From IMG/VR virus record IMGVR_UViG_3300028384_000793, positions 1-41,915 of that record: a DNA stretch of 41,915 bases; one strand, written 5' to 3'. Origin of the DNA: a virus. Under the pieces are notes generated by a model. It worked only from the letters and a program-made list of their open reading frames with translations, made no database searches and was not told the DNA's origin. Below, in pieces: positions 15,187 through 35,704 of the stretch. Position 1 is the first letter of the stretch; each line of letters opens with the position of its first letter. Made by a program: the position numbers and the translations under genes.

Positions 15187-15545
15187 TATTTGGAACCACA
15201 ACCAAGCCGACCAAAAAATACACGCCCCGACGTATTGAACGTTCGGGGCGTTTTTGGAATACGGGCAATGACGATGTGTTGCGCCACTGGTTCAAAGTTC
15301 GCAAGTTCAGTGTCAAAGAGTGTGCAAGTCGCAGCGGTTACAGTGAACGGTGTATTCGTCAACAATTGGAGCGTCTCGACCTGACTGTCAGACAGTTTGA
15401 GCATTGGACGGGCAAAGATGACAAAGTGTTACGCGAACTGTGGTCACGTCGTCCGAATGGCTCATGGTGTGCACGTGAAATGAATAAGGTCGGACGAACT
15501 GTCAGAAAACGGATCAAAGAATTGGGATTAAAAAAGCCGTCCTAG
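15156..15545 (+). CDS. DNA-binding protein with two tandem HTH domains
   Basis: The product is 129 aa. After a basic N-terminal arm of about 30 residues come two similar helix-turn-helix units. The first is WNTGNDDVLRHWFKVRKFS, then VKECASRSGYSERCIRQQL. The second is WTGKDDKVLRELWSRRPNG, then WCAREMNKVGRTVRKRIKEL. Each has the W-x3-DDxxLRxxW pattern followed by a recognition helix, as in GcrA/SANT-like repeats. It is the last gene of the rightward early operon. A strong terminator hairpin lies inside its 5' part, so expression may depend on attenuation or antitermination. Its stop codon lies in the terminator of the convergent gene. Confidence 0.7.
   Translation: MFNLDSLDRLVFGTTTKPTKKYTPRRIERSGRFWNTGNDDVLRHWFKVRKFSVKECASRSGYSERCIRQQLERLDLTVRQFEHWTGKDDKVLRELWSRRPNGSWCAREMNKVGRTVRKRIKELGLKKPS
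15222..15255 (+). terminator. Rho-independent terminator inside the double-HTH gene
   Basis: ACGCCCCGA (15222-15230) pairs with TCGGGGCGT (15243-15251) across a 12-base loop. The right arm runs straight into TTTTT. A 9-bp GC-rich stem plus U-tract is a textbook terminator, yet it lies 66-100 bases inside the 15156-15545 coding frame. Confidence 0.7.
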
Positions 15546-20916: not shown

Positions 20917-21805
20917 CGATTGGCGACAAGAATTACTCAACGAACAGATTGAACAGGCTGGTGTGAAGCGTAAGCCGAATTCTGTGAAAGTACCCGTAAT
21001 GAACGAAAATGAGTACCGTGTCGCGTTGGGTAAGCTTGTTCGAGAAGTTCGGAAGGACATCAACGAACAAATCATCCCAATCGTTAAATCCATCGAAACC
21101 CAATACACGGCCGACGCTGTTAGTTGGGTTGACTTGTTGACGTCCACAATTGATCGAGTCATTGCAAAATGGCAGTCACCAGAGTTCAACCAACTGGCAC
21201 AATTGCTTGCATCACGATTTGTACAGACCACTGCTGACATCACACGTGGTCGGTTTGAACGTTCTATGAAGTCGGTCGGTCTGAACATTTATGGTGACTC
21301 ACCAGCTATTCAAGGTTACATCGACGCTTCGATTTACGACAACGTGGGTTTGATTAAGTCAATCCCTGATCAATACCTAGAACGTGTACGAAGTATTGTC
21401 AACACGAACGTTCGTGCTGGTCTTCGTCCAAGTGCTATGATCCCACAACTGGTGAATCAGTTTGGTGTCACAGAACGTCGTGCAAAATTCATTGCCCGTG
21501 ACCAAACGGCAAAGGTTAATGGTGACTTGGCCGAGAAACGTCAAATCAATGCAGGGTTTCCATATTTCCAGTGGGACGATTCAGACGATGAACGTGTGCG
21601 ACATTCACATGAAGAATTGGCGAATCGTGTCACAGCATACGGTAAGGGTGTTTATCGTTGGGATAATTTACCACTCGGTAAAGACGGTAAACCCATTAAA
21701 CCAGGGTATGAGTACGGGTGTCGCTGTGTTGCACGACCTGTTGATCAAAGAGAGGTTGACGCGAACGTAAAAGCCGGACGCGTCAATAAATCGGTCAAAC
21801 GTTAA
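20909..21805 (+). CDS. Minor head / SPP1 gp7-like morphogenesis protein (Phage_Mu_F)
   Basis: The product is 298 aa. The ATG at 20909 overlaps the portal stop; a longer frame from 20867 lies inside the portal gene. The C-terminal Mu gpF-like domain is clear: ARDQTAKVNGDLAEKRQ near 210, FPYFQWDDSDDERVRHSHEE near 230-250, then PGYEYGCRCVARP near 275. The N-terminal part is helical and charged, as in proteins that bind the portal inside the procapsid. Its role is head assembly and possibly ejection with the DNA. Confidence 0.88.
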   Translation: MNNDWRQELLNEQIEQAGVKRKPNSVKVPVMNENEYRVALGKLVREVRKDINEQIIPIVKSIETQYTADAVSWVDLLTSTIDRVIAKWQSPEFNQLAQLLASRFVQTTADITRGRFERSMKSVGLNIYGDSPAIQGYIDASIYDNVGLIKSIPDQYLERVRSIVNTNVRAGLRPSAMIPQLVNQFGVTERRAKFIARDQTAKVNGDLAEKRQINAGFPYFQWDDSDDERVRHSHEELANRVTAYGKGVYRWDNLPLGKDGKPIKPGYEYGCRCVARPVDQREVDANVKAGRVNKSVKR

Positions 21806-22113
21806 GCTGTTGGTTTGAATCGTAAGAACCCGAAACGGTTAGACACCATTTCACCTTCATCATTCATGAAAATTAGTCGACTGTTAGGTTCGAACATTCT
21901 GGCCCATTTGAAAGCTGTCTTGATTGTTCGAATTTGCCAAAACTTGTATTTCGTCAACGGTTCCACTTCGTCAACAGTGATTCGTAAGATGAACACCCAC
22001 AAATAAGCCCACCGCTGACAAAACATGACGGTTCTTAAAATTAACGGTGTCACAAAATAACAGTGTGCGAGACACGACGTTATCACCAGATACCACGCTA
22101 AATATTCAATCAT
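21802..22113 (-). CDS. Small membrane protein in minus-strand cassette
   Basis: The product is 103 aa, with ATG at 22113 after AAGGA. The first 30 residues are hydrophobic (YLAWYLVITSCLAHCYFVT) and a second hydrophobic stretch follows (WAYLWVFILRITV), so one or two membrane segments are likely. The C-terminal half is basic and cytoplasm-like. It is the last gene of a three-gene leftward cassette that interrupts the late operon. No family is recognised. Confidence 0.6.
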   Translation of the reverse strand: MIEYLAWYLVITSCLAHCYFVTPLILRTVMFCQRWAYLWVFILRITVDEVEPLTKYKFWQIRTIKTAFKWARMFEPNSRLIFMNDEGEMVSNRFGFLRFKPTA

Positions 22114-22280
22114 GCTGCTTTTTCCTTAGTTTTCCAATCGTCAATACGTTTCACGGTTGCGTCGTATTCATCGAACAACCGTTGTGCGTCATCTTGTCGA
22201 CCTTGTTCAAGTGCTAATTGGTACGCTTCGTAAAACCCGTCTCGTACCGCTTCCAACCATTTCAAATTACCGCTTGTCAT
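22110..22280 (-). CDS. Small acidic helical protein
   Basis: A 56 aa frame starts at the ATG at 22280 and ends by ATGA overlap with the next gene. It reads as one long amphipathic helix (WLEAVRDGFYEAYQLALEQ, then DDAQRLFDEYDATVKRIDDW). It overlaps the upstream gene by 14 bases. No family is recognised. A coupled three-gene arrangement supports reality. Confidence 0.6.
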   Translation of the reverse strand: MTSGNLKWLEAVRDGFYEAYQLALEQGRQDDAQRLFDEYDATVKRIDDWKTKEKAA

Positions 22281-22641
22281 TACTTAGTTCCTCAATCATC
22301 CATTGTGCAAATTTAATCGTATTAGGGTGAATTTGACGAGTGGAACCTAATACATCACGACTGAACCGTTCGGCCATTTCCTTACCTGTTTCATGAAATG
22401 GTTCGTTGTCACGCACTGCAATCGCCCAATCAATTTCAGAAATGAACCCATATACTTCATGGTGAAGACTAGGTTCCCACATTCCGTTAACGTCTTTTAA
22501 TGTCCACAACCAACCGTTCGGTGTCGGGTGTCCACCTGTTTTAGTCGGCCAATCTTTGATATTGTCAGTGAGCCACTGTAACGCTTCATCACGATTGAGC
22601 TTCTGAACATTGGCGTGTGTCACACCTTCTGGAATTTTCAT
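22267..22641 (-). CDS. Hypothetical protein, first gene of minus-strand cassette
   Basis: The product is 124 aa. I chose the ATG at 22641 with GAGG upstream; the frame to 22674 reaches into the operator. Features are ALQWLTDNIKDWPT near 20-33, a Trp/Gly/Pro-rich middle (HPTPNGWLWTLKDVNGMW), then a helical end. It is transcribed leftward from the divergent promoter at 22659-22716. Function unknown. Confidence 0.65.
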   Translation of the reverse strand: MKIPEGVTHANVQKLNRDEALQWLTDNIKDWPTKTGGHPTPNGWLWTLKDVNGMWEPSLHHEVYGFISEIDWAIAVRDNEPFHETGKEMAERFSRDVLGSTRQIHPNTIKFAQWMIEELSNDKR

Positions 22642-22658
22642 AATTTTGACCTCGTTTG

Positions 22659-22716
22659 TTGACGTGAGCGTCACACATTATACAGTGTTGCACCACTTGT
22701 CAACATCATTTATACT
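22659..22716. promoter_or_regulatory. Divergent promoter region with TGAC-N6-GTCA operator
   Basis: A full operator TGAC-GTGAGC-GTCA lies at 22660-22673; a degenerate partner ending in GTCA lies at 22689-22702. Rightward: TTGCAC (22688-22693), 17 bases, TATACT (22711-22716), only 6 bases before the ATG at 22723. Leftward: TTGACA (22703-22698) and TATAAT (22682-22677) with a short 15-base spacer. It serves the minus-strand cassette and restarts the late operon. Confidence 0.65.
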
Positions 22717-22722
22717 GATCGT

Positions 22723-23832
22723 ATGAAAAAATTCACGATAGACAAAGCAGGGTACACACCGTCCAGTCGAGAATATCTTGACAACGGTTTCCTGAAAATT
22801 AAAGGTTACGCCGCACGGACGGGGATATACGATTATCTCGCGTCCGAACTTGGTTTGAAAGACCGTAACCCTAACGACATTATCAAAGTGATGCGACCAC
22901 CGGAAGAGGTGTTCGACAGTGAATCACTCGATTCATATTCCCATGTGGACGTTACAGACAATCACCCGTCCGAGTTGGTCACCGCTGAAACGTTCAAGAA
23001 AGTCGTGACAGGTACGGTAACCACACCAGGAACACAAGACGGTGAATTCGTGGCGTTCGAAGCAATCATCAAAGACGCCGACACGATCAAAGCTGTTGAG
23101 TCCGGCAAAGTTCAGGTATCACCAGGTTACACGGCGATATATGATGAAGCGCCAGAAGGTGCTGAGTACGATTTCGTACAACGTGAAATTCGAATCAATC
23201 ATTTGGCAATTGTGCCATTCGGTCGAGGTGGATCACACGTTAAGATTTTCGACAACAACGGAGTACAGAAAATGGTAAAAGTAACGCTTGATAGCGGTAA
23301 ATCTGTGGAAGTCAACGACGAGGCAACCGCCACGCTATTGACCGACACTTTTGACCGTTTAAATAAACGTGCGATGGATGCTGAATCCAAAGCTGACAAA
23401 ATGGAAGCAGAGAAAGACGCTAAAGACGAAGAATTGGAGGAAGCTAAAAAAGCATCGTCCGACGAAGCGATTGCCGAGCGTGTAGAATCTGTAACACGTG
23501 CTGCACTTGATGCGAAACGTGTAGCTGGTAAAGACTTCACCTGTGACAGTATGGACGAAGTAGCAATCAAACGTGCTGCGCTTGCTGTTCGTTTCCCGAA
23601 ACGTGAATGGGCTGATAAGTCGGCTGATTATGTGCGTGCTTCTTTTGACATGGAAATGGACAAAGAAGAAACGGAAGACGAAGACGCTGAAAAAGTCAAA
23701 GAACAGCAAAAGAAAGCTGCTTCTGACGCCGCAACCAGCGTGAGTGTCCCGACCAAAGACGGTCAACCCGTGTTAAACGGTATGCAAAAACTTCAACAAT
23801 CACGCGCGCAAGCCGCGAACGGAGGTAAATAA
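22723..23832 (+). CDS. DUF2213 capsid maturation protease-like / scaffold protein
   Basis: The product is 369 aa. The N-terminal about 180 residues match DUF2213 phage head proteins: FLKIKGYAARTGIYDY near 24-39, MRPPEEVFDSESLDSY near 57, VDVTDNHPSE near 76, VQVSPGYTA near 130 and HLAIVPFGRGGSHV near 160. In this family the domain is associated with capsid assembly and probable proteolysis. The C-terminal half is a highly charged helical region (KADKMEAEKDAKDEELEEA), as in scaffolds. The ATG lies 6 bases after a TATACT -10 box, with no room for a Shine-Dalgarno site, so the mRNA may be leaderless. An internal start may give the scaffold separately. Confidence 0.82.
   Translation: MKKFTIDKAGYTPSSREYLDNGFLKIKGYAARTGIYDYLASELGLKDRNPNDIIKVMRPPEEVFDSESLDSYSHVDVTDNHPSELVTAETFKKVVTGTVTTPGTQDGEFVAFEAIIKDADTIKAVESGKVQVSPGYTAIYDEAPEGAEYDFVQREIRINHLAIVPFGRGGSHVKIFDNNGVQKMVKVTLDSGKSVEVNDEATATLLTDTFDRLNKRAMDAESKADKMEAEKDAKDEELEEAKKASSDEAIAERVESVTRAALDAKRVAGKDFTCDSMDEVAIKRAALAVRFPKREWADKSADYVRASFDMEMDKEETEDEDAEKVKEQQKKAASDAATSVSVPTKDGQPVLNGMQKLQQSRAQAANGGK
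23272..23832 (+). CDS. Possible nested scaffold product of the DUF2213 gene
   Basis: An in-frame ATG at 23272 (codon 184) is preceded by GGAG at an 8-base spacing. It lies exactly between the DUF2213 domain and the charged helical half. Translation from here would give a 186 aa scaffold, as lambda Nu3 is made from within gene C. The RBS and position are seen; the product is inferred. Confidence 0.4.
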   Translation: MVKVTLDSGKSVEVNDEATATLLTDTFDRLNKRAMDAESKADKMEAEKDAKDEELEEAKKASSDEAIAERVESVTRAALDAKRVAGKDFTCDSMDEVAIKRAALAVRFPKREWADKSADYVRASFDMEMDKEETEDEDAEKVKEQQKKAASDAATSVSVPTKDGQPVLNGMQKLQQSRAQAANGGK

Positions 23833-23834
23833 TT

Positions 23835-24323
23835 ATGCCTGTTATCGGTGGTAATTCAATCGATCACGGCGTCGCGTACGCTGGTATGATCGCAGACGGT
23901 CAACTGTCTAACAAGGTGACCCGTTTAAACACGTCTAACGACTCTATCGCATTCGGTAAAGGTGTCGTCACTGACACAGTGAACGAAGGTGGTGCAATCT
24001 TGCCGACGGCTACGTCTACAGCGGCACAGTTCAACGGTATCGTGAAACGCGAACTAAACCGTGCACACGAAGATGGTGATGACGGTGCAATCGCTGGTTA
24101 TGACATGACTGTCGTGACTGAGGGTGTTGTGTGGGTAACCGTACTTGATACTGTTGCTAAGGACGCACCTGTTTACCTACGCGTGGGCGCGACAGGTGCT
24201 GGTGATTTTTCCGGTATCGTCGGCACTGGTGCGACACTTGGCGTGTTAATCAGTAATGCAAAATTCTTGACCGCTGGTGACGCTGGCGATCTTGTCAAAG
24301 TTTCACTAGGATTAGGTGGTTAA
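23835..24323 (+). CDS. Head decoration / capsid cement protein (DUF2190-like)
   Basis: The product is 162 aa, with ATG at 23835 after GGAGG. It is a beta-rich, Gly/Ala/Thr/Val-rich protein with almost no long helices (GAILPTATSTAAQFNGIV, then VVTEGVVWVTVLDTVAKDAP, then GATGAGDFSGIVGTGA). Proteins of this size and composition between the scaffold and the major capsid gene are usually decoration or cement proteins that stabilise the capsid. Identification rests mainly on position and composition. Confidence 0.7.
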   Translation: MPVIGGNSIDHGVAYAGMIADGQLSNKVTRLNTSNDSIAFGKGVVTDTVNEGGAILPTATSTAAQFNGIVKRELNRAHEDGDDGAIAGYDMTVVTEGVVWVTVLDTVAKDAPVYLRVGATGAGDFSGIVGTGATLGVLISNAKFLTAGDAGDLVKVSLGLGG

Positions 24324-24324
24324 T

Positions 24325-25341
24325 ATGAAACATACAGTAACACTTGACGCGGATTTCGCGTTTGCTACACCAGGTATTCAAGCCGGTGTTCAACTGGCGT
24401 TCAATGACGGTATTCCGACAATGGATGACGGTCTTGCGTTCTACATTTCGCAACTTGCTGGTCTTGAGTCCAAAATTTACGAAGCGAAATACACGAACAT
24501 CAATTTTGCTGAACTTGTGCCGATTAAAGGTGACGTTCCAGAATGGGCAGACACTTGGGAATACTTGTCTTATGATGCTGTAACACTTGGTAAGTTTATC
24601 GGTTCATCTGCTGACGACCTACCAAAGGTTGCGTTCAACGCGAACAAATCCAATGTGCCAATCGGTTATGCTGGTGTGTCTTATGATTATTCACTTGATG
24701 AATTGCGTAAGTCTCAACAATTGCGTATGCCGATCGACAGCACTAAGGCAAAAGTCGCGTTTCGTGGTTCACAAGAACACACTCAACGTGTAGCTTACTT
24801 CGGTGACGCTGGTCGCAACATGACAGGCTTGTTCAACAACGGTAACGTTGCATTGGATAACTCTGTTGTCGATTGGTCGACAGCAACAGGTCAAGAGATC
24901 ATCGACGACATGAATGGTCTGGGTATCAAAGTTTGGACTGATTCAGCGAACGTACACGTGCCTAACACTTGGGTCATCGATTCAACTCGTTTTGCACAAA
25001 TCAGTTCGAAACGTATGGCTGACGGTACTGACACGACTGTGCTTGAGTTCTTCTTGAAAAACAACATTTACACGTCTTTGACTGGTCAGACTCCACGTGT
25101 TGTGCCACGTTTACAGCTTACCGCTGCTGAACTTGCTGCAAACGGTGTGTCGAACAGCAACAAAGATCGTATGATGGCGTACGAAATGAATGAAGAAAAC
25201 TTGGCAATGGCTAACCCTATTCCATTCCGTCCATTACCGCCACAGTCGCAAGGCTTGAATGTGTATGTACCGTGTGAATACAAGGTAAGTGGCACCGAAT
25301 TCCGCTTTGTATTCGCTGCTGCATACCGCGATCACCTGTAA
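24325..25341 (+). CDS. Major capsid protein (DUF2184 family)
   Basis: The product is 338 aa. The ATG at 24325 has AGGTGG upstream; an earlier GTG in frame is part of that site. Typical DUF2184 features are LAFYISQLAGLESKIYEAKY near 40, LVPIKGDVPEWADTWEY near 67-83, a VSYDYSLDEL segment near 118, GDAGRNMTGLFN near 155 and the C-terminal PCEYKVSGTEFRF. It forms the HK97-fold shell. A strong terminator follows directly, as expected for a highly expressed capsid gene. Confidence 0.9.
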   Translation: MKHTVTLDADFAFATPGIQAGVQLAFNDGIPTMDDGLAFYISQLAGLESKIYEAKYTNINFAELVPIKGDVPEWADTWEYLSYDAVTLGKFIGSSADDLPKVAFNANKSNVPIGYAGVSYDYSLDELRKSQQLRMPIDSTKAKVAFRGSQEHTQRVAYFGDAGRNMTGLFNNGNVALDNSVVDWSTATGQEIIDDMNGLGIKVWTDSANVHVPNTWVIDSTRFAQISSKRMADGTDTTVLEFFLKNNIYTSLTGQTPRVVPRLQLTAAELAANGVSNSNKDRMMAYEMNEENLAMANPIPFRPLPPQSQGLNVYVPCEYKVSGTEFRFVFAAAYRDHL

Positions 25342-25366
25342 TGGTTAATCGTTGTTGAATGATGTA

Positions 25367-25395
25367 AAGCCCTCTTAACTGAGGGCTTTTTTTTT
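25367..25395 (+). terminator. Rho-independent terminator after the major capsid gene
   Basis: AAGCCCTC (25367-25374) pairs with GAGGGCTT (25381-25388) over a 6-base loop. A run of nine T ends at 25395. Strong stem and long T-run. It separates the capsid gene from the convergent HNH gene. Confidence 0.9.
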
Positions 25396-26206
25396 AACCT
25401 ATGAAACGGTTTCCTTTCGAAAGATTGTCGAACGCCCATAGGGGTTGAAGGTTGTCGAGCGAGTTGATAATTGCAGGGTCGGTAACACCCGAATTAATCA
25501 TCGTACTGACTGGGACTATATGATCAATGTGCCATTCACCGTAATTGTCCCAACTCATACCGTCTTTGAATTGTTTCTCGATATGAGTCATTAAATCATC
25601 ACTCGTATAACCCAATAGTTCTACGGTTCTTACAATCTTACTTTCATAAGTTCTAGTTAAAACACGACCCACCATGTTTCGCATATACGTTTGCATCTTG
25701 AATTTGTTGTCGTTCTCGCGTCTTTTTCGATAGTATTCGTTTATTCGTTCTCTGTTCTTCTTGCGGTAAACCTTGTTACTAGCACCTCGTTTCTCTTTGT
25801 GTTTGGCGTAATCAGCACGCTTTTCCGCTCTCATCTTTTCAATGTTCCGGTGATAGTGGTCTTTTTTCATCGTTCTCACACGGTCTTTATTTGCTTCACG
25901 CCATTCACGGTGTTTGTCTGAATACTTCCCTCTGCGACTCTCGTTTATACGATCTCTGTTTTCTTCGCGATACTTCGACGCTTTTTTCAGGCGTTCATCA
26001 CGGTGTTTGATGTGAGAAAGCCTGTCAGATTCTTTCTTCTTTTCAGGATTGTTTATTCGTCGTCTGTTAACCCGTTCTCTAATGCACGCAACACACTTTC
26101 CGTCGTTTACATAACGTTCCGAATCGTGACCGTGTTTGCATGGTTTTCCAGTGTAATAATGAGTGAGGGATTGTTCTTTCGCGTGGGTGCGTGAAATGAT
26201 TTCCAT
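25394..26206 (-). CDS. HNH homing-type endonuclease (copy 1)
   Basis: The product is 270 aa. I chose the ATG at 26206, with AAGGA upstream; longer frames lack an RBS. The first 45 residues form a Cys4 treble-clef module (YYTGKPC, GHDSERYV, KCVAC). A long Lys/Arg/Glu-rich helical linker follows. The C-terminal HNH domain reads MSWDNYGEWHIDHIVPVS, then LDNLQPLWAFDNLSKGN. It is minus-strand, free-standing, between capsid and connector genes, as homing endonucleases commonly are. It is paralogous to 28147-28839. A self-spreading role is inferred. Confidence 0.88.
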   Translation of the reverse strand: MEIISRTHAKEQSLTHYYTGKPCKHGHDSERYVNDGKCVACIRERVNRRRINNPEKKKESDRLSHIKHRDERLKKASKYREENRDRINESRRGKYSDKHREWREANKDRVRTMKKDHYHRNIEKMRAEKRADYAKHKEKRGASNKVYRKKNRERINEYYRKRRENDNKFKMQTYMRNMVGRVLTRTYESKIVRTVELLGYTSDDLMTHIEKQFKDGMSWDNYGEWHIDHIVPVSTMINSGVTDPAIINSLDNLQPLWAFDNLSKGNRFIG

Positions 26207-26308
26207 GATGTGATCCTTGTCAAAGGTAGTCATGATGATTTGTGGCGGTCGTTGACTAGACGATGTTCCCCCGCTAAAGGTAGCCACAAAGCAAACTCTA
26301 TCAAGTTA

Positions 26309-26370
26309 TGACCTGATTGTCAAATTATTACCGACTATGACGTGCGTGTCAACATTTAATTTTATATACT
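26309..26370. promoter_or_regulatory. Divergent late promoter with two TGAC-N6-GTCA operators
   Basis: Operators TGAC-CTGATT-GTCA (26309-26322) and TGAC-GTGCGT-GTCA (26338-26351) are 29 bp apart. Rightward: TATACT (26365-26370) starts 13 bases after the second operator, with no normal -35 box. The same 13-base spacing is seen at 28898 and 30758. Leftward TTGACA boxes are supplied by the reverse of each operator. It restarts the late operon after the HNH gene. Confidence 0.65.
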
Positions 26371-26402
26371 CAAATATCAATCAATCAATGAGGTTTACGA
26401 AA

Positions 26403-26756
26403 ATGGCAACACTAAAGAACATGGATAAACGCTTAATCACGATCAACCACGGCGGCAAGCGTTACGACATCAAATGTGGTAATAACCCAGCGGTCGAAGT
26501 ACCGGACGAAGCGTGCAAGAGTGACTTTGTAAAACACTTGATCGAAACTGGCAAACTTGTTTCAACTGGTGCAACTACAACCACGGCAACCGACCCAAGT
26601 ATTACCGAGGGTGGTGATGTTGACGCTGAAATGCGTGCAGAATTCGAAGCGATGACCGTCAAAGAATTGGAAGAACACGCCAAAATGTTAGACTTGGAAG
26701 GTTATTCGAGCATGAACAAAGCCGAGTTGGTTGGATTCATTTTAGAAAATTCTTAA
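26403..26756 (+). CDS. Small protein with C-terminal SAP/HeH-like helix domain
   Basis: The product is 117 aa. The ATG at 26403 has GAGG upstream; the longer frame begins within the promoter. The N-terminal half (ITINHGGKRYDIKCG, then VEVPDEACKSDFV) looks like small head-completion proteins. A Thr-rich linker follows. The final 35 residues (MTVKELEEHAKMLDLEGYSS, then MNKAELVGFIL) fit a HeH/SAP-type helix-extension-helix motif. This arrangement is common in small phage head-tail region proteins. Own terminator downstream. Function is inferred from context. Confidence 0.7.
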   Translation: MATLKNMDKRLITINHGGKRYDIKCGNNPAVEVPDEACKSDFVKHLIETGKLVSTGATTTTATDPSITEGGDVDAEMRAEFEAMTVKELEEHAKMLDLEGYSSMNKAELVGFILENS

Positions 26757-26766
26757 CACCTGGTAT

Positions 26767-26813
26767 ATCCCGCCACGCCTATCGAAGAAGCGTAACCTTG
26801 GCGGGATTTTTTT
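26767..26813 (+). terminator. Rho-independent terminator
   Basis: ATCCCGCCA (26767-26775) pairs with TGGCGGGAT (26799-26807). An inner ACGC/GCGT pair stabilises the loop. The stem is followed by seven T. It ends the short transcript of 26403-26756. Confidence 0.85.
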
Positions 26814-26858
26814 ATTGGGTCATGTTATACTGGTTGTTATTTGATCGAGATTATTACT

Positions 26859-27740
26859 ATGATTGTGAAATTAACAGGTGGTGAATTCGTCGACTTGTAC
26901 GACGCAACAGGTGTTGCTGTCGGTACACAGTTAATCGTTACGAATGTCACGACGAGTGATGTTCGACTTTTTGCAACCGAAACCACCCCCGACCCAAGTA
27001 CTGACAACAGTTTCCCATGCATATTCGGCGGGTCGAGTGTGATCAATAACCCAGGTGACAGTGGTGCTTGGGTTATTAGTCCGAGCAATGGTGCGGTTCT
27101 CGTCACTTCGTTGGACGGTTCAGGTTTCAAACCGCTCGACGTGAGCATACTCACGAACCTTGTCACTTCGTTGGACGGAAACGGTCGAATTAAAGTTGAT
27201 TCACAACAATCAAGCTTTGAACAAAACACACAGTTTCGATTCTTTGAAGACGTATCTGACCAAACTGAATATGGTGGTGATGATTTGTCTGTGCCTGCAG
27301 CGAATGTGTTGGTGTATGAATTCAACGCAGTCAATCCGGTCAATATTCAAACACGTATCATTAATCAGTGGTCTGGTGGTCGTAAATACTTGGTGTTTCC
27401 GACCACGGGTGCGACTATCACGGGCGGCACGTGGGAAGACGTATCCGACCAACTGTATATCATAAACGGTAATAAGAACCCCTACATCGACGCGCTACCG
27501 ACAACAGAGGTAACCGTCCGTCGTCGTGTTGCCACTTCGTTCGTCACGAGTGAGAAAGCGCGTACAGGTACAGCCGCCGTCACCGAATCGCAAGGCAATA
27601 GGCAGTCTAGCGAGTATTCACCAGACAGTTCGCGGTCAGGTGTTGCAGGGAACCAGGGGTTTTATCTGGTGTTTTTCGACTTGGATGGTGCGAACCCTTC
27701 CGAGTTTTTATTCACTGTTGCATACGAGGAACGTTTCTAA
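26859..27740 (+). CDS. Probable virion structural protein
   Basis: The product is 293 aa. I chose the ATG at 26859; the frame could begin at a TTG at 26841. A TATACT box lies at 26826-26831. The sequence is beta-rich, with two copies of VTSLDG (near 82 and 102). It ends in an FYLVFFDLDGANPSEFLFTVAYEERF-like strand region. No Cys pairs or enzyme motifs. Its place between capsid and DUF4054 connector genes suggests a head fibre or decoration role. No family recognised. Confidence 0.65.
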   Translation: MIVKLTGGEFVDLYDATGVAVGTQLIVTNVTTSDVRLFATETTPDPSTDNSFPCIFGGSSVINNPGDSGAWVISPSNGAVLVTSLDGSGFKPLDVSILTNLVTSLDGNGRIKVDSQQSSFEQNTQFRFFEDVSDQTEYGGDDLSVPAANVLVYEFNAVNPVNIQTRIINQWSGGRKYLVFPTTGATITGGTWEDVSDQLYIINGNKNPYIDALPTTEVTVRRRVATSFVTSEKARTGTAAVTESQGNRQSSEYSPDSSRSGVAGNQGFYLVFFDLDGANPSEFLFTVAYEERF

Positions 27741-28150
27741 TGGATATTACACAAGAAATGATCGACCTATTCCGCACGCGTCAGCGAGCGTTTGAAAGTG
27801 ACACAACGTGGTCGGACGACACGATCGAACAAGCCCTTTGTGAAGGTGACGCCGAAACAGGTGGTAAAGGTTGGGGGTTGTATGACACACCCTGTCAGAA
27901 CTTTAAACAACGAGGCATGTTTTTATATGCTGCTCATTACATCGCGTCGATGTATCCGAAAGGTGACGCTGGCAGTGTGTCAGGTGGGTCGAAAGGTTCT
28001 ACAGCTTCCAAGTCTGTCGGTGACGAATCAATCTCGTACGCGCGCGCAACCGTACTGACACAGGGTGACGAGTGGTTAGGTAGTACCGCGTTTGGTCAAC
28101 AGTTCATGCGACTTAGACGTCGTGCTGGGTTCGGTGCTAGAGCGGTTTAA
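27740..28150 (+). CDS. Head-tail connector protein (DUF4054)
   Basis: The product is 136 aa and starts in the stop codon of the preceding gene (TAATG). It has the usual DUF4054 order: ITQEMIDLFRTRQRAF, WSDDTIEQALCEGDAETG, a KQRGMFLYAAHYIA helix near 53-67, a Gly/Ser-rich loop and the C-terminal GDEWLGSTAFGQQFMRLRRR. Such proteins form the ring below the portal. Its 3' end overlaps the convergent HNH gene by 4 bases. Confidence 0.85.
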   Translation: MDITQEMIDLFRTRQRAFESDTTWSDDTIEQALCEGDAETGGKGWGLYDTPCQNFKQRGMFLYAAHYIASMYPKGDAGSVSGGSKGSTASKSVGDESISYARATVLTQGDEWLGSTAFGQQFMRLRRRAGFGARAV

Positions 28151-28839
28151 CCTTCGTACCTGTCCTTTTTCGACATGTTATCGAAAGCCCATAATGGTTG
28201 AAGGTTGTTGAGGTTATTGATCACCCTATGATCTCTTACACCACGTCGTATCATTAACGCCACGGGAACAATATGGTCGACGTGCCACTCCCCGTGGTTT
28301 CCCCAACTCATGCCGTCTTTGAATTGCTTCTCGATGTGCTGTCTAAACTGATCTAATGAAAAACCCATCATTGTCTTGACTGATCCGGATTTTCGTTGTT
28401 TGGTCTTAGCCAGTACCTTTCGCAACATTGTTCGACAAGTGATGTTCAACCTGTAATTCACATCGCCCGTATATCTTCGTGTGTGACGAATTCTTCTACG
28501 TTGTTTATATCTGTCTAATTTCTGGTATTCCCTCCTGTACTTTCTGTATTTCTCACTTTTCTGGTATTCTCTCTTTTTAATTCGGTGTTCTTCGTTATTC
28601 CTTCTTTCTCGTTCTAATCGGTTTGCTCGTTCTCTATTGTCGTGTACTGACATATACTTTCTTTTGTATTCTTTATTTTTACCGTTCGCTGACCTCTTTT
28701 TTTGAGCGTGATAATGACACTCCACGCATTTTCTCCCTGACACCATTCGTTCGGACACATGGCCTTTACTACACGGTTTCCCTGTGAAGTACCTTTTAGC
28801 GCCCGTTTCTTTCGCTTGTTTTATAGTTACCAATTCCAT
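28147..28839 (-). CDS. HNH homing-type endonuclease (copy 2)
   Basis: The product is 230 aa, with ATG at 28839 after GAGGAG. The N-terminal Cys4 module (YFTGKPC, GHVSERMV, KCVEC), very basic helical linker and C-terminal HNH (MSWGNHGEWHVDHIVPVA, then LNNLQPLWAFDNMSKKD) follow the same plan as 25394-26206. The HNH ends are alike even in DNA. It is inserted, on the minus strand, between connector and tail-completion genes. A homing role is inferred. Confidence 0.88.
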   Translation of the reverse strand: MELVTIKQAKETGAKRYFTGKPCSKGHVSERMVSGRKCVECHYHAQKKRSANGKNKEYKRKYMSVHDNRERANRLERERRNNEEHRIKKREYQKSEKYRKYRREYQKLDRYKQRRRIRHTRRYTGDVNYRLNITCRTMLRKVLAKTKQRKSGSVKTMMGFSLDQFRQHIEKQFKDGMSWGNHGEWHVDHIVPVALMIRRGVRDHRVINNLNNLQPLWAFDNMSKKDRYEG

Positions 28840-28883
28840 AACCCACTCCTCAGTGTATTTCACATTAATTCAGGAATGGGAGC

Positions 28884-28930
28884 ATCATAAAATTTAACGA
28901 CGTGCGCGTCAACGTTTAATAACATATAAT
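28884..28930. promoter_or_regulatory. Divergent late promoter with near-operator
   Basis: CGAC-GTGCGC-GTCA (28898-28911) is one mismatch from the operator. Rightward: TATAAT (28925-28930), 13 bases after the palindrome. Leftward: TTGACG (28912-28907), 17-base spacer and TTATGA/TATGAT near 28884-28890, serving the HNH gene. Confidence 0.6.
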
Positions 28931-28958
28931 TTTAAAATAATTTACTAACGGTGAATGT

Positions 28959-29555
28959 ATGATTAAAACAACGGTCACGGGTGCTGATAAGGCACTCGGT
29001 GAATTGAACAAAGCGTTGCAAGAATTCATGACTGACAAAGTCGTGACCGTCGGCATACATGAAGATGAAAACGCTCGTGACAGCGGGACGATCACAAATG
29101 CTCAACTCGGTGCTGTTCATGAATTCGGTGCTGACATAGATCACCCTGGTGGTACGTCGTACGGTTACGCAACGAAAGCGGCCGCAGACAAAGGACAAGT
29201 TAGGTTCTTGAAAAAGGGTGAAGGATACGCCGAACTTGGTGTCACTGACCCGCACAAGATTGTGATACCGGCTAGACCGTGGTTATTACCCGGTGTGCAA
29301 TCTGGTAACGCAGAGTATTTGAAAGTCATTAAAGATACTGTTGAAGACGGTGGGACGCTTGAACAAGCGTTGAATAAAGTCGGCGTTGTGGCGGTGTCGA
29401 AAGTTCAAGAATACATGACGAAATTGCGATCACCAGCAAACGCAGCGTCAACCATCGCAAGAAAAGGATCGTCAAACCCGTTGATTGATTCGGGTAACTT
29501 GCGACAATCAGTAGATTACAAAATACAACCGACCAAACCAAACGAGGGTTTATAA
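28959..29555 (+). CDS. Tail completion protein (HK97 gp10 / Mu gpG-like)
   Basis: The product is 198 aa. KVVTVGIHEDENARD near 27-41, then NAQLGAVHEFGADIDHPGG near 47-65, then IPARPWLLPGVQ near 103, then NPLIDSGNLRQSVDYKI near 172-188 are characteristic of this family of head-tail joining/tail completion proteins. It is the first gene after the promoter at 28898. Stop overlaps the next start (TAATG). Confidence 0.82.
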   Translation: MIKTTVTGADKALGELNKALQEFMTDKVVTVGIHEDENARDSGTITNAQLGAVHEFGADIDHPGGTSYGYATKAAADKGQVRFLKKGEGYAELGVTDPHKIVIPARPWLLPGVQSGNAEYLKVIKDTVEDGGTLEQALNKVGVVAVSKVQEYMTKLRSPANAASTIARKGSSNPLIDSGNLRQSVDYKIQPTKPNEGL

Positions 29556-29920
29556 TGTCATTAGATATGGAAGGACACATCGACGACGTGTTCGAATCAT
29601 TTGTTGCAACTCGATATTCATTTGTTGCCGGATACCGTGATGCGGACGGCGTGTGGATAGAAGGAACAACAAACCCAACACCTCACTCGGTGACCGCACA
29701 ACCTGTTTCGGATCGTGAATTTGCATCACTGTCGAACGGCAACGAACGAATTCAAGACACCAGAAATTTGTGGATTAATGACGGTATTGACCCAAGTATT
29801 CAAGAAGCGGACGAATGGGAATTCGAAGGACAACGCTGGCGGTGCATGAAATTGGACAACCGCCCACGTCGGAACTATTGCAAAGTAACGGTCACTCGTC
29901 TGGACGTTCAACCAGAATGA
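29555..29920 (+). CDS. Head-tail joining / tail protein, unassigned family
   Basis: The product is 121 aa, coupled to the previous gene. It contains FVAGYRDADGVWIEG, then NPTPHSVTAQPVSDREF, then ADEWEFEGQRWRCMKLDNRP. Small proteins of this type sit between gp10-like and tail terminator genes in related myoviruses. I assign it to the neck region from position. The 3' end overlaps a minus-strand small gene by 29 bases. Confidence 0.65.
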   Translation: MSLDMEGHIDDVFESFVATRYSFVAGYRDADGVWIEGTTNPTPHSVTAQPVSDREFASLSNGNERIQDTRNLWINDGIDPSIQEADEWEFEGQRWRCMKLDNRPRRNYCKVTVTRLDVQPE

Positions 29921-30056
29921 GTATTAATGCCACCAGCAAACCAACCAAACCAGCATACCCACAAAGTACCAGCCATGTTGTTAACGCTTGGTTTACTGGT
30001 TCGACGATGTTTAACGTGTCGATAATTACCTGTGAAAGTTGATTAGGCCAAAACAT
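29892..30056 (-). CDS. Small one-TM membrane protein (54 aa)
   Basis: The ATG at 30056 lies 14 bases inside the upstream gene; stop TGA at 29894-29892. The N-terminal half is polar (FWPNQLSQVIIDTLNIVEP). Residues about 27-49 are hydrophobic (TTWLVLCGYAGLVGLLVALI), followed by VERPDE. This is a single membrane span with a charged tail, the shape of small holins, antiholins or inhibitors of lysis. It is the last gene of a minus-strand cassette. Function is inferred only from shape. Confidence 0.5.
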   Translation of the reverse strand: MFWPNQLSQVIIDTLNIVEPVNQALTTWLVLCGYAGLVGLLVALILILVERPDE

Positions 30057-30192
30057 AATAAATTGATCCCATGATTGAAAGTTGAACGATTGCTAGTTTC
30101 AGCCAAAATTGAAGCGCAGTTTTAGACACTGGCGAAACAATCATCATTGCTGTAATTTGGCTGAAAAAATAAATAACAATAAACTGAATCAT
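30043..30192 (-). CDS. Small membrane protein (49 aa)
   Basis: The ATG at 30192 overlaps the upstream stop codon (ATGA). The product has two hydrophobic stretches (IQFIVIYFFSQITAMMIV and LKLAIVQLSIMGSIYYVL), separated by a short polar turn. This suggests a two-span hairpin. It overlaps the next small membrane gene by 14 bases. The pair could be a holin/antiholin-like or exclusion system; no family is recognised. Confidence 0.5.
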   Translation of the reverse strand: MIQFIVIYFFSQITAMMIVSPVSKTALQFWLKLAIVQLSIMGSIYYVLA

Positions 30193-30431
30193 AACCCGTA
30201 CCTTGTTAAACACTCATTGAAAGACACCACACCAGCCTCGTAAACCGCGCTTTTGATTTCCTGTTCAGTGAACAAGCGATCTTTACGAACTTCTTGCAAC
30301 ACTGGCAACTTGTAATAAAAGTCATCACTGATCGCCAATATTTCTTGCGTCCCTGTTGTTCCGTAGTGTCTCGCTTCGACACCTTCTTGCACTGTTTCTG
30401 ACAACGCAATACACCATGCAATGATGATCAT
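30189..30431 (-). CDS. Small hypothetical protein
   Basis: The product is 80 aa, with ATG at 30431 after GAGGTG. The first residues are hydrophobic (MIIIAWCIAL). The rest is soluble and amphipathic (EILAISDDFYYKLPVLQEV, then FTEQEIKSAVYEAGV). No family is recognised. It lies between the Lar-like gene and the two membrane genes in one leftward unit. Confidence 0.6.
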   Translation of the reverse strand: MIIIAWCIALSETVQEGVEARHYGTTGTQEILAISDDFYYKLPVLQEVRKDRLFTEQEIKSAVYEAGVVSFNECLTRYGL

Positions 30432-30433
30432 TT

Positions 30434-30709
30434 TTACACCTCACCTCGTTCGATTTTGTCAGCTCTGTTCTGCATTGACATATAAATGAATTTGTCGTCA
30501 ATAAAGCTTTGTTCGGAGCATTCACGCACTGCACCGGCTTTGATTTTGTTGACATCAAACAATAGATTCCAGTTATTGATAGCCGCCTGTCTCGTGGAGT
30601 GCTCGTCAAGCGTTCTAACTTCACAGTTATAGCAAACCACCAAACACCCTACGTCGTCTTCTTGTATTTCCATTCCACCACAAGGACACGGATTTAATTT
30701 TTCACACAT
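30434..30709 (-). CDS. Lar-like restriction alleviation protein (zinc-ribbon)
   Basis: The product is 91 aa. I chose the ATG at 30709, with GAGG 10 bases upstream. The first 50 residues read LNPCPCGG, then VVCYNCEV, then AAINNWN. This is the pattern of Lar-family proteins (PCPfCGg, CxxC, Ai-WN), which in E. coli Rac prophage alter type I restriction. Many phage members have no tested function. First gene of the 30709-29892 leftward cassette. Confidence 0.7.
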   Translation of the reverse strand: MCEKLNPCPCGGMEIQEDDVGCLVVCYNCEVRTLDEHSTRQAAINNWNLLFDVNKIKAGAVRECSEQSFIDDKFIYMSMQNRADKIERGEV

Positions 30710-30742
30710 CGCTGAGTTACCTCGTTCGTTCAATATGGAATC

Positions 30743-30790
30743 ATTCTAGTATTATCATGACGTGCGTGTCAAACTTTAATTGCATATAAT
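30743..30790. promoter_or_regulatory. Divergent late promoter with TGAC-N6-GTCA operator
   Basis: TGAC-GTGCGT-GTCA lies at 30758-30771. Leftward: TTGACA (30772-30767), an 18-base spacer and TAGAAT (30748-30743), for the Lar-like cassette. Rightward: TATAAT (30785-30790), 13 bases after the palindrome and 9 bases before the ATG at 30800. Confidence 0.7.
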
Positions 30791-30799
30791 TGGTAAATT

Positions 30800-31333
30800 A
30801 TGGACAGAATTGAACTTTTCAGACATTTGTCAGGCATAGTGAAACTTGCAACCGGTGTTCCGATTTGCACACCAGCCGATGACAACAACCCCGCACCAAG
30901 CGGTTCGTATGCTTCAATTGAACCATACAGTAATGTTGCGTCTCGTGGTCAAGCGAACATTAGTACAACCGGTGTTGATGGTGGGATGAATGTTAGTACC
31001 ATTGTCAAGCGTCAATTACTTGTTACCGCGTCAATTAATTTTTACCGTGACAACGCCAAGCTTTACGCTGCTAAATTGATCGATGGGAACAAGAACCCGA
31101 ACGTGTCAAAGCTGTTGCGTGATGCGGGTATCGGTTGGAGTCGTACTAGCGCGGTGAACGATTTGGACGCGTTACAGTCTGCAAAAATTGAACAACGGTC
31201 GCAAATTTCACTCATGTTTTGGATGGAACTTGTCGACGATCCGGTCGTGTATAACGCGATTAATCAAGTTGAACTCGAAGTGCAAAACTCGAAAGGTGAC
31301 GTGCTTCAAACTAGCAATTACACAGGAGAATAA
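30800..31333 (+). CDS. Tail terminator / neck protein (gp12-like)
   Basis: The product is 177 aa. It starts 9 bases after a TATAAT box with no Shine-Dalgarno, so it is probably translated from a leaderless mRNA. LFRHLSGIVKLATGVP, then SGSYASIEPYSNVAS, then KRQLLVTASINFYRDNAKLY fit the neck/tail-terminator group found directly upstream of sheath genes in myoviruses. It would cap the tail tube and join it to the head. Family assignment is moderate; position supports it. Confidence 0.7.
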   Translation: MDRIELFRHLSGIVKLATGVPICTPADDNNPAPSGSYASIEPYSNVASRGQANISTTGVDGGMNVSTIVKRQLLVTASINFYRDNAKLYAAKLIDGNKNPNVSKLLRDAGIGWSRTSAVNDLDALQSAKIEQRSQISLMFWMELVDDPVVYNAINQVELEVQNSKGDVLQTSNYTGE

Positions 31334-31337
31334 AACT

Positions 31338-32489
31338 GTGACCGCATATAACGTAAATAACATCATTCCGATTACGACGACGATTAGTCCGACGGGTTTG
31401 GCGTTTGCAAATTTCGCGAAAGCGTTCATGTTTGCACCTGAATCTGAATTGCCGGTCGGTTTCAACGTCGATGAAATTCGTACTTATACAAGTTTGTCGG
31501 GTTTGTCCGCTGACTTTGACAGTACAACTGAAACGTACAAAGCGTTGTCGAAATGGCTCGGTGGTATCCCAGCACAGTCAAGTGTGACAGTGTTTGGTGT
31601 CGACTCAACAGACGCTAACATCACCGACACATTGAACAAGGCGCGAAACCTTCACGGGTGGTGGTACTGGTCATTCTTTACGGAAGACGTTTACGCTGAT
31701 GTGACCGGTGACGTGCTTGAAATTGCGGCATGGTCGGACGCAAACGACGCGTTCTTCATGAACTGTCAAACTGGTGTAAGCTGTACAGCTATCCGTAACG
31801 CGAGCCTTGATACAGACGTTGCCAGTGTGTTGACCAACTTAGGCTATCGTCACACTATGACGTTCGCGCACTTCACTGATCCATACGCGGGTATTGCGTT
31901 AACCAAGTGGTACGCTGCTGTGAATTACTCGGCGACAAACTCAACCATTACCGGTTTCGGTAAGAAGTTGAGCGGTGTTGCTGCTGAAACGTTGACAGGT
32001 ACAGAGTATTCGACAATGGAACTCGACACCAAAATTGCAGCGTTTTATACCGTGGTGGACTTGCAAGGTTCCACTGACAACGGCCGAGTGATTAACACCA
32101 AAACACACAGCTCGTTCGGTGAATACGGTGACGACATTGTGAACTTGGACGCGTTCCTTAATGCTATTAAAGTAGCACTGTACAATGTCATTGTGAACCA
32201 AACGAAAAAGCTTGGTCAAACGTCACGCGGTCAGGCAGTGATTAACTCGACAGCACGTTCGGTGTGTCAGACGTATGTATCAAACGGTTATCTTGGTGAA
32301 CGGAATTACATTGACCCAGACGACGGAGTCGAGAAGTACACGCCAGGGTTCGAAATTTTGACAGACCCTATTGAAATTTTAGACTTGTCCGACTCTGATC
32401 GTGACGCCCGTAAATCTGCTACGGTTAAAATTCGTATTTTCCGAGCTGGTGCAATCGAAAGCGCCCCTGTTGACATCGAGGTATATTAA
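31338..32489 (+). CDS. Tail sheath-like protein (DUF3383)
   Basis: The product is 383 aa. I chose GTG 31338, with CAGGAGA about 9 bases upstream; the open frame extends to 31188 but that part overlaps the previous gene. DUF3383 features are SGLSADFDSTTETYKALSKW near 52-72, NLHGWWYWSFFTED near 104, GYRHTMTFAHF near 169, EYSTMELDTKIAAFY near 222 and the C-terminal SDRDARKSATVKIRIFRAGAI. It forms the contractile sheath and so establishes a myovirus. Confidence 0.9.
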   Translation: MTAYNVNNIIPITTTISPTGLAFANFAKAFMFAPESELPVGFNVDEIRTYTSLSGLSADFDSTTETYKALSKWLGGIPAQSSVTVFGVDSTDANITDTLNKARNLHGWWYWSFFTEDVYADVTGDVLEIAAWSDANDAFFMNCQTGVSCTAIRNASLDTDVASVLTNLGYRHTMTFAHFTDPYAGIALTKWYAAVNYSATNSTITGFGKKLSGVAAETLTGTEYSTMELDTKIAAFYTVVDLQGSTDNGRVINTKTHSSFGEYGDDIVNLDAFLNAIKVALYNVIVNQTKKLGQTSRGQAVINSTARSVCQTYVSNGYLGERNYIDPDDGVEKYTPGFEILTDPIEILDLSDSDRDARKSATVKIRIFRAGAIESAPVDIEVY

Positions 32490-32491
32490 TC

Positions 32492-32905
32492 ATGGCTTTA
32501 TCAGATTTTAGTACAGAAAGTGCGGTCGTTGTGATCAACGGCCGTGAAATTACAGATTGGGGTGAGACGGCGACACCGTACACGTCAGACCCTATCGACC
32601 CTAAATCGTTGTTACGTCGAGGTCAGGGTGGTCGTGCGGTTCGAATGGATCGCATCAACCCAGGTCGTGCAATTGCTGTTTACCTTAGCCCAGGTAGTGC
32701 GGACAGTGCATACATGCAAGGGTTAATGAACAGTAAAGCGACGATCACTCTTGGTTACACTCAAATTGGTTCGCTCGAAGTTGAAGCGGCTAGCGAAGGT
32801 GTAATCACGAACGACGCATCAAAAGGTCGTGCCGGTTCAACCATTACTGACGACCAGTACATCATGGAATTCAACATTCATAACCAAACGAAAGGTGGTG
32901 AATAA
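32492..32905 (+). CDS. Tail tube protein
   Basis: The product is 137 aa. It follows the sheath gene by 2 bases. It is beta-rich: SAVVVINGREITDWGE, RGQGGRAVRMDRINPGRAI, YLSPGSADSAYMQGLMN and DDQYIMEFNIHN. This matches the phage tube proteins that follow DUF3383 sheaths (DUF3277-like). The stop codon overlaps the next start (TAATG). Confidence 0.85.
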   Translation: MALSDFSTESAVVVINGREITDWGETATPYTSDPIDPKSLLRRGQGGRAVRMDRINPGRAIAVYLSPGSADSAYMQGLMNSKATITLGYTQIGSLEVEAASEGVITNDASKGRAGSTITDDQYIMEFNIHNQTKGGE

Positions 32906-33288
32906 TGAAACAGGTCGTCATAGGTGAAAAAACGTTTGCCGTCAGTCATACTGACGCGCAATCTCAAAAGAAATTGTTGACTTTGCTTGGTTCTCGATTA
33001 GCACTGGTTGTCTCTAGTGCTAAGGTTGATGAAGTCGATGTTCCGTTGTTGGTCGGCAACTTGGTGTCACTCGAAGAAAGCAAACTCGACCAGGTCGCAT
33101 CACTGGCGTTAAAGCGAACACGTGTTGTCGGGTCGGAAGAACCTATCGATGTAAAACTTTTTCAGAATCACATGACCGATTATTTCAAATTAATCGCGGA
33201 GGCAGTGAAACTGAACATGGATGATTTTTTTACGTTTGTTCTCGAAGACCTCGCGGCGCAAAACGCGACACAGGACGGGAACGGGTAG
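32905..33288 (+). CDS. Tail assembly chaperone, short (0-frame) product
   Basis: The product is 127 aa and starts in the tube stop codon. It is a soluble alpha/beta protein: TFAVSHTDAQSQKKLLTLLG, LVVSSAKVDEVDVPLLVGNL, and FKLIAEAVKLNMDDFFTFVL at the end. It stops just before a second open stretch in the -1 frame. This is the classical arrangement of tail assembly chaperones between tube and tape measure genes (lambda G / G-T). The heptamer T-TTT-TTT at 33225-33231, at codons for FF in MDDFF, is in the correct phase for -1 slipping. Confidence 0.8.
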   Translation: MKQVVIGEKTFAVSHTDAQSQKKLLTLLGSRLALVVSSAKVDEVDVPLLVGNLVSLEESKLDQVASLALKRTRVVGSEEPIDVKLFQNHMTDYFKLIAEAVKLNMDDFFTFVLEDLAAQNATQDGNG

Positions 33289-35411: not shown

Positions 35412-35704
35412 TCACTATACCGTTGAGTAATGGCGCGGTGAACGCACACCCTGTTTTTGAAATTGAACTAGGTGATAACACGGTCGAGTTTCGAATAAAT
35501 TGGAACACGACCGAACAATATTGGTCAGCCGATTTATATGTTGAAGGTGAATTGAAGTGTGCTGGTGTCATATTACTGGTTGGTGATGAATTAATCAGTG
35601 CGTATAACGCTGGGCTTGGTAAGCTTGTGATGGTTGGTATTGATCCGACTCTTGACAATCTTGGTGTCGACAATCGATTGATTTGGATACCCGACAATGA
35701 GTGA
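35408..35704 (+). CDS. Baseplate plug protein (Pam3 gp18-like)
   Basis: The product is 98 aa. ITIPLSNGAVNAHPVFEIEL at the start, EFRINWNTTEQYWSADLYVE near 26-45 and VGIDPTLDNLG near 76 match the small plug protein of the cyanophage Pam3 type baseplate. It has an all-beta composition. It overlaps both neighbours, as in the related gene order Dit, plug, hub. Confidence 0.8.
   Translation: MITIPLSNGAVNAHPVFEIELGDNTVEFRINWNTTEQYWSADLYVEGELKCAGVILLVGDELISAYNAGLGKLVMVGIDPTLDNLGVDNRLIWIPDNE

Follow-up and report, generated by a model that had tools for sequence, protein, structure and literature searches.

Fixed slots for exchangeable backward cargo behind a dyad operator in the late operon of dwarf myoviruses, probably under a TetR-like protein

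How do short blocks of leftward genes come to lie within a late operon that is read rightward, and does each block bring its own promoter? The question is raised by a 41.9-kb virus record (IMG/VR IMGVR_UViG_3300028384_000793, positions 1 to 41,915; the window, that is, the whole stretch of DNA analyzed), which represents a myovirus of the CP-T1 / phiPLPE group and whose rightward late genes are interspersed with four short leftward blocks, here called cassettes. A preliminary description of this DNA proposed that the cassettes carry their promoter with them, or that insertions survive only where late transcription restarts. The analysis reported here points to a different arrangement as the likely one: fixed slots in which backward cargo is swapped under a dyad operator, probably controlled by a small TetR-like protein of the phage.

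The dyad stands at the −35 box of leftward cargo promoters

The operator dyad, TGAC-N6-GTCA, is found at the right end of all four minus-strand cassettes, one copy being imperfect, and the preliminary description was correct that each cassette ends at a divergent promoter region containing it. Cassette 1 (21802–22641, minus strand), with two or three small genes in the slot between a MuF-like head gene and a DUF2213-type protease gene, ends at TGACGTGAGCGTCA (22660–22673). Cassette 2 (25394–26206, minus strand) encodes an HNH / endonuclease VII-type endonuclease between the major capsid protein (MCP) and HeH genes and is followed by a tandem pair, TGACCTGATTGTCA (26309–26322) and, 29 bases from it, TGACGTGCGTGTCA (26338–26351). 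At the DUF4054/Neck1 slot, cassette 3 (28147–28839, minus strand) encodes an endonuclease VII-type endonuclease and ends at the imperfect dyad CGACGTGCGCGTCA (28898–28911), one outer base of which is off. Cassette 4 (29925–30709, minus strand), made up of small genes including 30189–30431 in the slot between HC and tail completion (TC), ends at a second copy of TGACGTGCGTGTCA (30758–30771). The window contains 18 strict copies, whereas 200 Markov simulations gave 1.57 on average and at most 5; 11 of the 18 dyads are centered outside the hand-listed coding sequences, which leave 9% uncovered.

Leftward −35 and −10 boxes, called by consensus only, were found for all four cassettes. Four dyads (26309, 26338, 28898, and 30758) provide, on the minus strand, a TTGAC(A/G) −35 box with a −10 box at 17, 17, 17, and 18 bases; the pairs are TTGACA-17-AATAAT (at the 26338 dyad; TTGACA at 26347–26352, AATAAT at 26324–26329), TTGACA-17-TAGAGT, TTGACG-17-TATGAT (28912 to 28884), and TTGACA-18-TAGAAT (30772 to 30743). 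These four are the top-listed sites in a promoter scan of 21001–33000, in which two further sites also reach 10/12 and which gave 21 sites overall versus 18.4 expected. The predicted leftward promoter of cassette 1, TTGACA-15-TATAAT (22677–22703, minus strand), lies directly upstream of its dyad.

The same geometry recurs among relatives. When any hexamer with A as its second and T as its sixth base is scored as a −10 box, a leftward −10 lies exactly 17 bases from the outer arm of the dyad in 43 of the 80 unique sites; other leftward spacings account for 1–12 of the 80 sites, and in the rightward direction there is no peak (14 sites at 17). Because the −10 peak lies at 17 leftward, the dyad would primarily be the operator for backward cargo, and its TTGAC arm is the predicted −35 box of the cassette's own leftward promoter. 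The absence of a rightward peak at 17 also speaks against the highly improbable reading that no operator exists and that the dyad serves instead as two symmetric −35 boxes, as an RNA hairpin, or as a terminator. TTGAC does act as a −35 box, the dyad RNA could form a short stem, and the 28898 dyad appears as terminator-like (minus strand) in one scan, all as this reading would have it; it is opposed by N6 being the only enriched spacing, by the recurrence of tandem copies 27–29 bases apart, and by the co-occurrence of the dyad with a TetR homologue.

The relatives on which these counts rest belong to a group labeled here "dwarf" myoviruses (CP-T1 / phiPLPE / Jedunavirus-like). The MCP of the window is ~75% identical to those of Vibrio phages CP-T1, 24, 138, and Rostov M3, and mostly 52–76% identical to those of its IMG/VR relatives. 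An IMG/VR search with the exact 23-base pattern of the window's rightward promoter and a megablast of 16 kb against the phages collection gave no match, so relatives were gathered via proteins; a pattern scan of genome contigs returned 362 stretches, with no relative among them. Sixteen late genes were placed by tblastn in the relatives' loci, giving 915 junction gaps that were deduplicated to 523. Match ends from tblastn, rather than annotated genes, delimit the gaps; both the 250-base threshold and the rule for deduplication were set by us; and the open reading frame picker keeps the longest frames, so that some strand calls are wrong.

Within these limits, the dyad follows the strand of the cargo. 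It was present at 70 of 91 junctions with minus-strand inserts, 4 of 44 with plus-strand inserts, 9 of 376 without an insert, 3 of 7 with mixed inserts, and 2 of 5 unclear cases (Fisher test, minus versus plus, 2e-14). Without the window's own rows the counts are 67/88, 4/43, and 9/367 for minus, plus, and no insert; among loci with at least one junction dyad they are 70/84, 4/25, and 9/147. The window's own DUF4054|Neck1 junction was scored "plus, no dyad" because the stop of its HNH gene overlaps the neighboring gene and its dyad has one mismatch. Among all 256 N6 dyads, TGAC occurs in 70 gaps with minus-strand inserts and the runner-up in 11, and with spacers other than 6 (2 to 12 were tried) the dyad occurs in at most 6 gaps. 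In a set of compact relatives (L046 to L077 except L047, and L086) minus-strand inserts are few, and no gap above 250 bases contains a dyad. One sequence signature marks slot position, cargo strand, and, probably, expression timing.

The rightward side of the dyads is less uniform. As first described, the plus strand of sites 26338, 28898, and 30758 carries exactly 13 bases past the dyad and then a −10 box, namely TATACT (26365–26370), TATAAT (28925–28930), and TATAAT (30785–30790), with no −35 box at 16–18 bases. The extended pattern GACGTGCGYGTCAANNTTTAAT with at most three mismatches gives 3 matches versus 0.03 expected. The shared promoter plan holds for these three slots; it does not extend to the first cassette, where the predicted rightward promoter of the protease gene near 22660 is of a different kind, TTGCAC-17-TATACT (22688–22716, plus strand). 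A second rightward promoter type, GTGTCAA-N6-TTATACT or near, with a half-site before the −10 box, was observed at slots without the 13-base arrangement (portal|MuF in L004, slots in L022 and L082, and window 22698–22716).

Since a rightward −10 box lies 13 bases past the dyad, late transcription may restart at three window slots, and activation of these three −35-less promoters is possible. A stronger form, an early-to-late switch in which the dyad-bound protein shuts off the leftward cargo promoter and also turns on the rightward late one, is doubtful. The distance from GTCAA to TATAMT is exactly 12 bases in the three window slots and likewise to TAAAAT/TACAAT/TAAAAT in three slots of phiPLPE, a phage of another genus, and a TetR-type protein that is both activator and repressor is known in LuxR of Vibrio harveyi (PMC2628434). 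Against the switch, a rightward −10 at that spacing is found in few others of the 80 unique sites, many dyads touch the start codon and leave no room for one, and the three copies within each phage are similar to each other and may be duplicates. A leftward −10 is present at 11 of the 12 unique non-window sites whose dyad lies near the beginning of the rightward gene. A rightward promoter to the left of such start-codon-touching dyads was considered and rejected: a positional scan of the 12 sites gave no rightward signal there, the sole signal being the leftward −10 on the other strand. The idea that insertions survive only where late transcription restarts is therefore not general.

Cargo is exchanged behind a resident operator block

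Cassette genes sit between genes that are adjacent in relatives, with few-base gaps at HC|TC, DUF4054|Neck1, and portal|MuF, and at HC|TC and DUF4054|Neck1 most insert-less relatives have no room for a promoter or operator. Self-contained morons, with every cassette moving together with an operator and promoter of its own, would account for this pattern as well as for the co-occurrence of operator and minus-strand cargo, for the guanine plus cytosine (GC) fraction of the cassettes (0.41–0.43 versus 0.45–0.48 in late core genes), and for the near-duplication of the operator block within a genome (at three slots of the window and at two of L004). We nevertheless consider such units improbable, since block and cargo part company in three comparisons.

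First, 109 pairs of relatives share a slot and a block that is at least 80% identical; 32 of these pairs share less than 10% of their cargo 12-mers, and 43 share more than half. The clearest swap is that between CP-T1 and 138 at DUF4054|Neck1, where the block is 98% identical and the shared 12-mer fraction of the cargo is 0.00. Second, at MCP|HeH the phages CP-T1, 24, and Rostov M3, with a 124-base gap and no cassette, share TTTTGTACACCGTCGTCAACTGATGTATTATTGG and a rightward promoter with 138, which has 916 bases and an HNH cassette at this junction. The HNH cassette of 138 thus stands beside a promoter that is also present in CP-T1, and it brought no dyad; the claim that cassettes carry the promoter is not supported here. 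Third, at portal|MuF, L004 holds two backward genes and L006 holds none, and each flank is 94% identical between the two. The L004 cargo is bounded by 14-base near-repeats, GTCTCGGGGCGTTT and GTCTCGCTCCGTTT, and cargo-less L006 retains the rightward promoter GTGTCAAGCGGTGTTATACT. Its dyad is decayed by one base, GCCA where L004 has GTCA; operator decay after cargo loss would fit an operator that serves the cargo, the direction of change being deduced from the sequences.

Nor does the promoter vanish together with the cassette, as the preliminary description had expected: beyond L006, six relatives (L017–L020, L029, and L037) keep the palindrome at MCP|HeH in a ~115-base gap without a cassette. 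That expectation fits most slots without an insert, which have few-base gaps and no operator, and breaks down at MCP|HeH and portal|MuF. The cassette–operator unit fared similarly, in that the two co-occur across relatives but the dyad is not confined to cassettes. As an exclusive mark of cassettes the dyad was ruled out, as it is also found at early genes, for instance as a tandem pair in an early divergent intergenic region outside the late operon (7941–7982; dyads at 7941 and 7969), and at the six empty MCP|HeH junctions. As judged from sequence, the operator/promoter block is a fixed frame behind which cargo is exchanged; it stays while cargo changes or leaves and does not belong to the inserted unit.

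The cargo itself is varied. An HNH / endonuclease VII-type domain is identified in cassettes 2 and 3 by phrog_1035 (4.8e-26 and 8e-19), the Pfam HNH match of cassette 2 (0.02) being below cut-off. The genes of cassette 1 (21802–22113 and 22267–22641) match no Pfam family, and the second has a weak match to a PHROG without an assigned function. In cassette 4, gene 30434–30709 encodes a Lar-like restriction-alleviation protein (Lar_restr_allev 1.5e-4, below the curated cut-off; phrog_599 1.2e-5). Left of slot 2, a strong intrinsic terminator with nine pairs and then a T run follows the major capsid gene (25366–25389, plus strand); none is clear left of the other window cassettes. The searches for tRNAs and Rfam families in the window found none.

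Several further features were seen at or near the slots. The leader of the HNH gene (CTTGTCAAAGGTAGTCA...TTGACTAGA), at 26207–26280 in the window and 12751–12830 in L010, is common to the HNH gene of phage 138; the HNH unit seems to take in this leader and not the operator, because the leader is shared although the slot of 138 has no operator. At MuF|protease, plus-strand HNH genes of the same family lie beside backward cargo in L004 (7426–8343) and L006 (6800–7462). A long inverted repeat around GGCCCGCC or similar, such as AACTCGTTACGG...CCGTAACGAGTT, recurs behind the capsid gene in the MCP|HeH gap of several clades (L004, L006, L016, L022, L026, L040, L041, and L045). An extra dyad, TTGACGGTGTTGTCAA (578–591), is located at the left end of the window by an HNH-like gene (589–987) and the DNA polymerase gene. 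The window also encodes a 370-amino-acid protein (15591–16703, minus strand) with several similar zinc-ribbon-like repeat units (SPRQEA...CxxC), which weakly resembles PHROGs that also match the endonuclease VII cassettes.

A small TetR-like protein as the candidate regulator

The most likely binder of the dyad is the phage's own 106-amino-acid TetR-like helix-turn-helix protein (11563–11883, plus strand). Upstream of its gene, tandem dyads at 11498 and 11526, 28 bases apart (11498–11539), flank a TTGACA-17-TTAATA promoter, an arrangement for which autoregulation is proposed. Tandem pairs 27–29 bases apart were also noted elsewhere, some with a promoter between them: in the window at 7941/7969, 26309/26338, and 36938/36965 in addition to 11498/11526, in L094–L096 upstream of the TetR gene, and in L090 (34519/34548).

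No homologue came from a viral scan with the TetR-like protein as sole query; a record-wise search across 43 records (the window and 42 relatives' loci) then gave 18. Genome-wide hits of TTGAC-N6-GTCA, counted on both strands, number 11–20 in each of the 18 records with a homologue and 0–2 in the 15 records of at least 39 kb without one. Ten shorter homologue-less records have 0–14 hits, the highest count coming from L004, a 32-kb fragment; the gene is present in its sister L006. In the window and in 12 of 15 fetched regions, the 150 bases preceding the TetR gene contain a strict dyad. The CP-T1 homologue, annotated as TetR, is 31% identical to the window protein. All 17 aligned homologues match TetR_N at expectation values (E) up to 1 (best 1.3e-9), the match of the window protein alone (0.15) being below cut-off, and the best match of a homologue profile against the PDB is a TetR protein (2.1e-10). 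The structure model (predicted local distance difference test score 92.8) has TetR-family repressors as its top Foldseek matches, which are weak (E 0.02 or worse; template modeling score about 0.5). With frames of 95–147 amino acids, the family is a short form that does not include the full-length ligand/dimer domain of TetR proteins of about 200 amino acids.

Two phages provide checks. Klebsiella phage KpV52 (Jedunavirus), held out from the motif definition, has 14 dyads. Every one of the four backward blocks lying between the portal and tape-measure genes has one, and others are located at an early divergent region and before the TetR gene. Promoter features entered by its depositors (4542–4570, 14016–14044, 35487–35515, and 38157–38185) overlap dyads, and no dyad is found at its plus-strand homing endonuclease (MCP|HeH) or at its backward lysis block. 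phiPLPE contains the strict dyad once, within a gene; a variant that differs by one base, TGCC-N6-GTCA in either orientation, is present at three backward blocks and 17 bases before the TetR gene, and two other backward blocks show neither form.

The mechanism proposed starts from the arrangement that comparison shows. The late operon has fixed cargo slots, each between two conserved virion genes, and the right end of a slot carries the operator TTGAC(R)-N4-(Y)GTCAA, with its TTGAC arm as the predicted −35 box of a leftward sigma70-type promoter. Backward cargo left of the operator (HNH endonucleases, Lar-like proteins, and many unknown small proteins) is exchanged, gained, or lost while the block stays, and the same operator is found at early promoters and before the small TetR-like gene. 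Most likely, the TetR-like protein, made early, would bind the dyad and, by covering the −35 box, repress its own gene, early genes, and every backward cargo slot, which would stop leftward cargo transcription before or during reading of the rightward late operon. Cargo would then be expressed early, and repression would avoid a collision with late transcription.

Several observations weigh against this reading. The 109 slot pairs are not independent, and when each clade and junction is given a single vote, with clade labels assigned by hand, the dyad is present in at least half of the members in 27 of 42 minus-strand cells and 3 of 23 plus-strand cells. A strict dyad is absent from 21 of 91 minus-strand inserts, among them several relatives' HNH cassettes at MCP|HeH and all six MuF|protease inserts in the L021 clade. 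A five-protein tree places the TetR-less phages in about three lineages, so the records are not independent either. Upstream of the TetR gene, 138, Rostov M3, and the genome of L006 show no more than imperfect dyads, and of eight additional phages with a TetR homologue, six (AeroV_348, PD0307, 367.14, SppYZU01, R9Y2, and CKB-S1) have 0–2 hits overall and none near the gene. The expectation of a dyad in every TetR-bearing phage is rejected by these six, so a TetR homologue alone does not imply the dyad operator.

Another binder is quite improbable, whether the D5-like regulator present in the window (15156–15545; PHROG match 4.4e-4) or a TetR-family protein of the host with TTGAC arms (RutR, for example). 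The RutR box has TTGAC/GTCAA arms, for which our search found no confirming paper. Against another binder, operator and TetR homologue co-occur genome-wide, the operator stands before that gene, and hosts vary widely (Vibrio, Edwardsiella, Klebsiella, and Iodobacter). It also appears unlikely that the small TetR-like protein acts as a two-faced switch at every slot, making the backward genes automatically early and silencing them at the start of the capsid operon; if it did, virion operons would contain, in these slots, a general docking system for genes of host takeover and counter-defense.

Relation to known systems

Fixed slots under a TetR-like protein would bear on several known phenomena. 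The usual view of accessory genes in phage virion operons is that they are scattered morons whose arrival is unexplained. The signature described here spans Vibrio, Edwardsiella, Klebsiella, Iodobacter, and uncultured phages, and the dyad is a simple handle for finding cargo, possible counter-defense genes included. The model bears on how a phage would avoid collisions between backward early genes and its late operon. No prior description of the operator or the slots was found in the literature searched, which covered few subscription journals.

A tetR-like gene has been reported for phiPLPE, CP-T1, and 138, phiPLPE-like dwarf myoviruses of the same phage group, and co-option of a bacterial regulator was suggested (PMC3391216, 2012). 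The main text of that article does not contain the words promoter, palindrom, inverted repeat, terminator, or moron, and no description of a regulon or slots was seen in the parts consulted; the model would give this unexplained gene a proposed role.

With respect to regulation, phi29 p4, Mu C, and P1 Lpa activate −35-less late promoters from a protein site upstream, and p4 also represses an early promoter. They differ from the present case in protein family and spacing, and activation here is only possible. The stoperators of cluster A mycobacteriophages, where one regulator reportedly recognizes asymmetric DNA at many sites genome-wide and stops elongation, are alike in having a single phage regulator and many dispersed sites. 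They are unlike the present sites, which are dyads overlapping −35 boxes at promoters and are assigned to a TetR-like protein.

The nearest concepts are regions of genomic plasticity and morons. The former, in Mu-like phages of P. aeruginosa, are likewise fixed sites of accessory-gene exchange, for which the authors report no recognizable common flank suggesting a recombinase target (PMC4378225); here a common operator marks the right flank. Morons are defined in the same source as accessory genes between adjacent conserved genes, with their own promoter, and those of lambdoid and Mu-like phages resemble the present cassettes as inserted accessory genes with their own promoter, variable between relatives and differing in GC (PMC4378225). 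The slots described here differ from them in holding up to seven backward genes each, in sharing one operator with early genes, and in having the promoter/operator as a fixed element of the slot rather than as part of the traveling unit.

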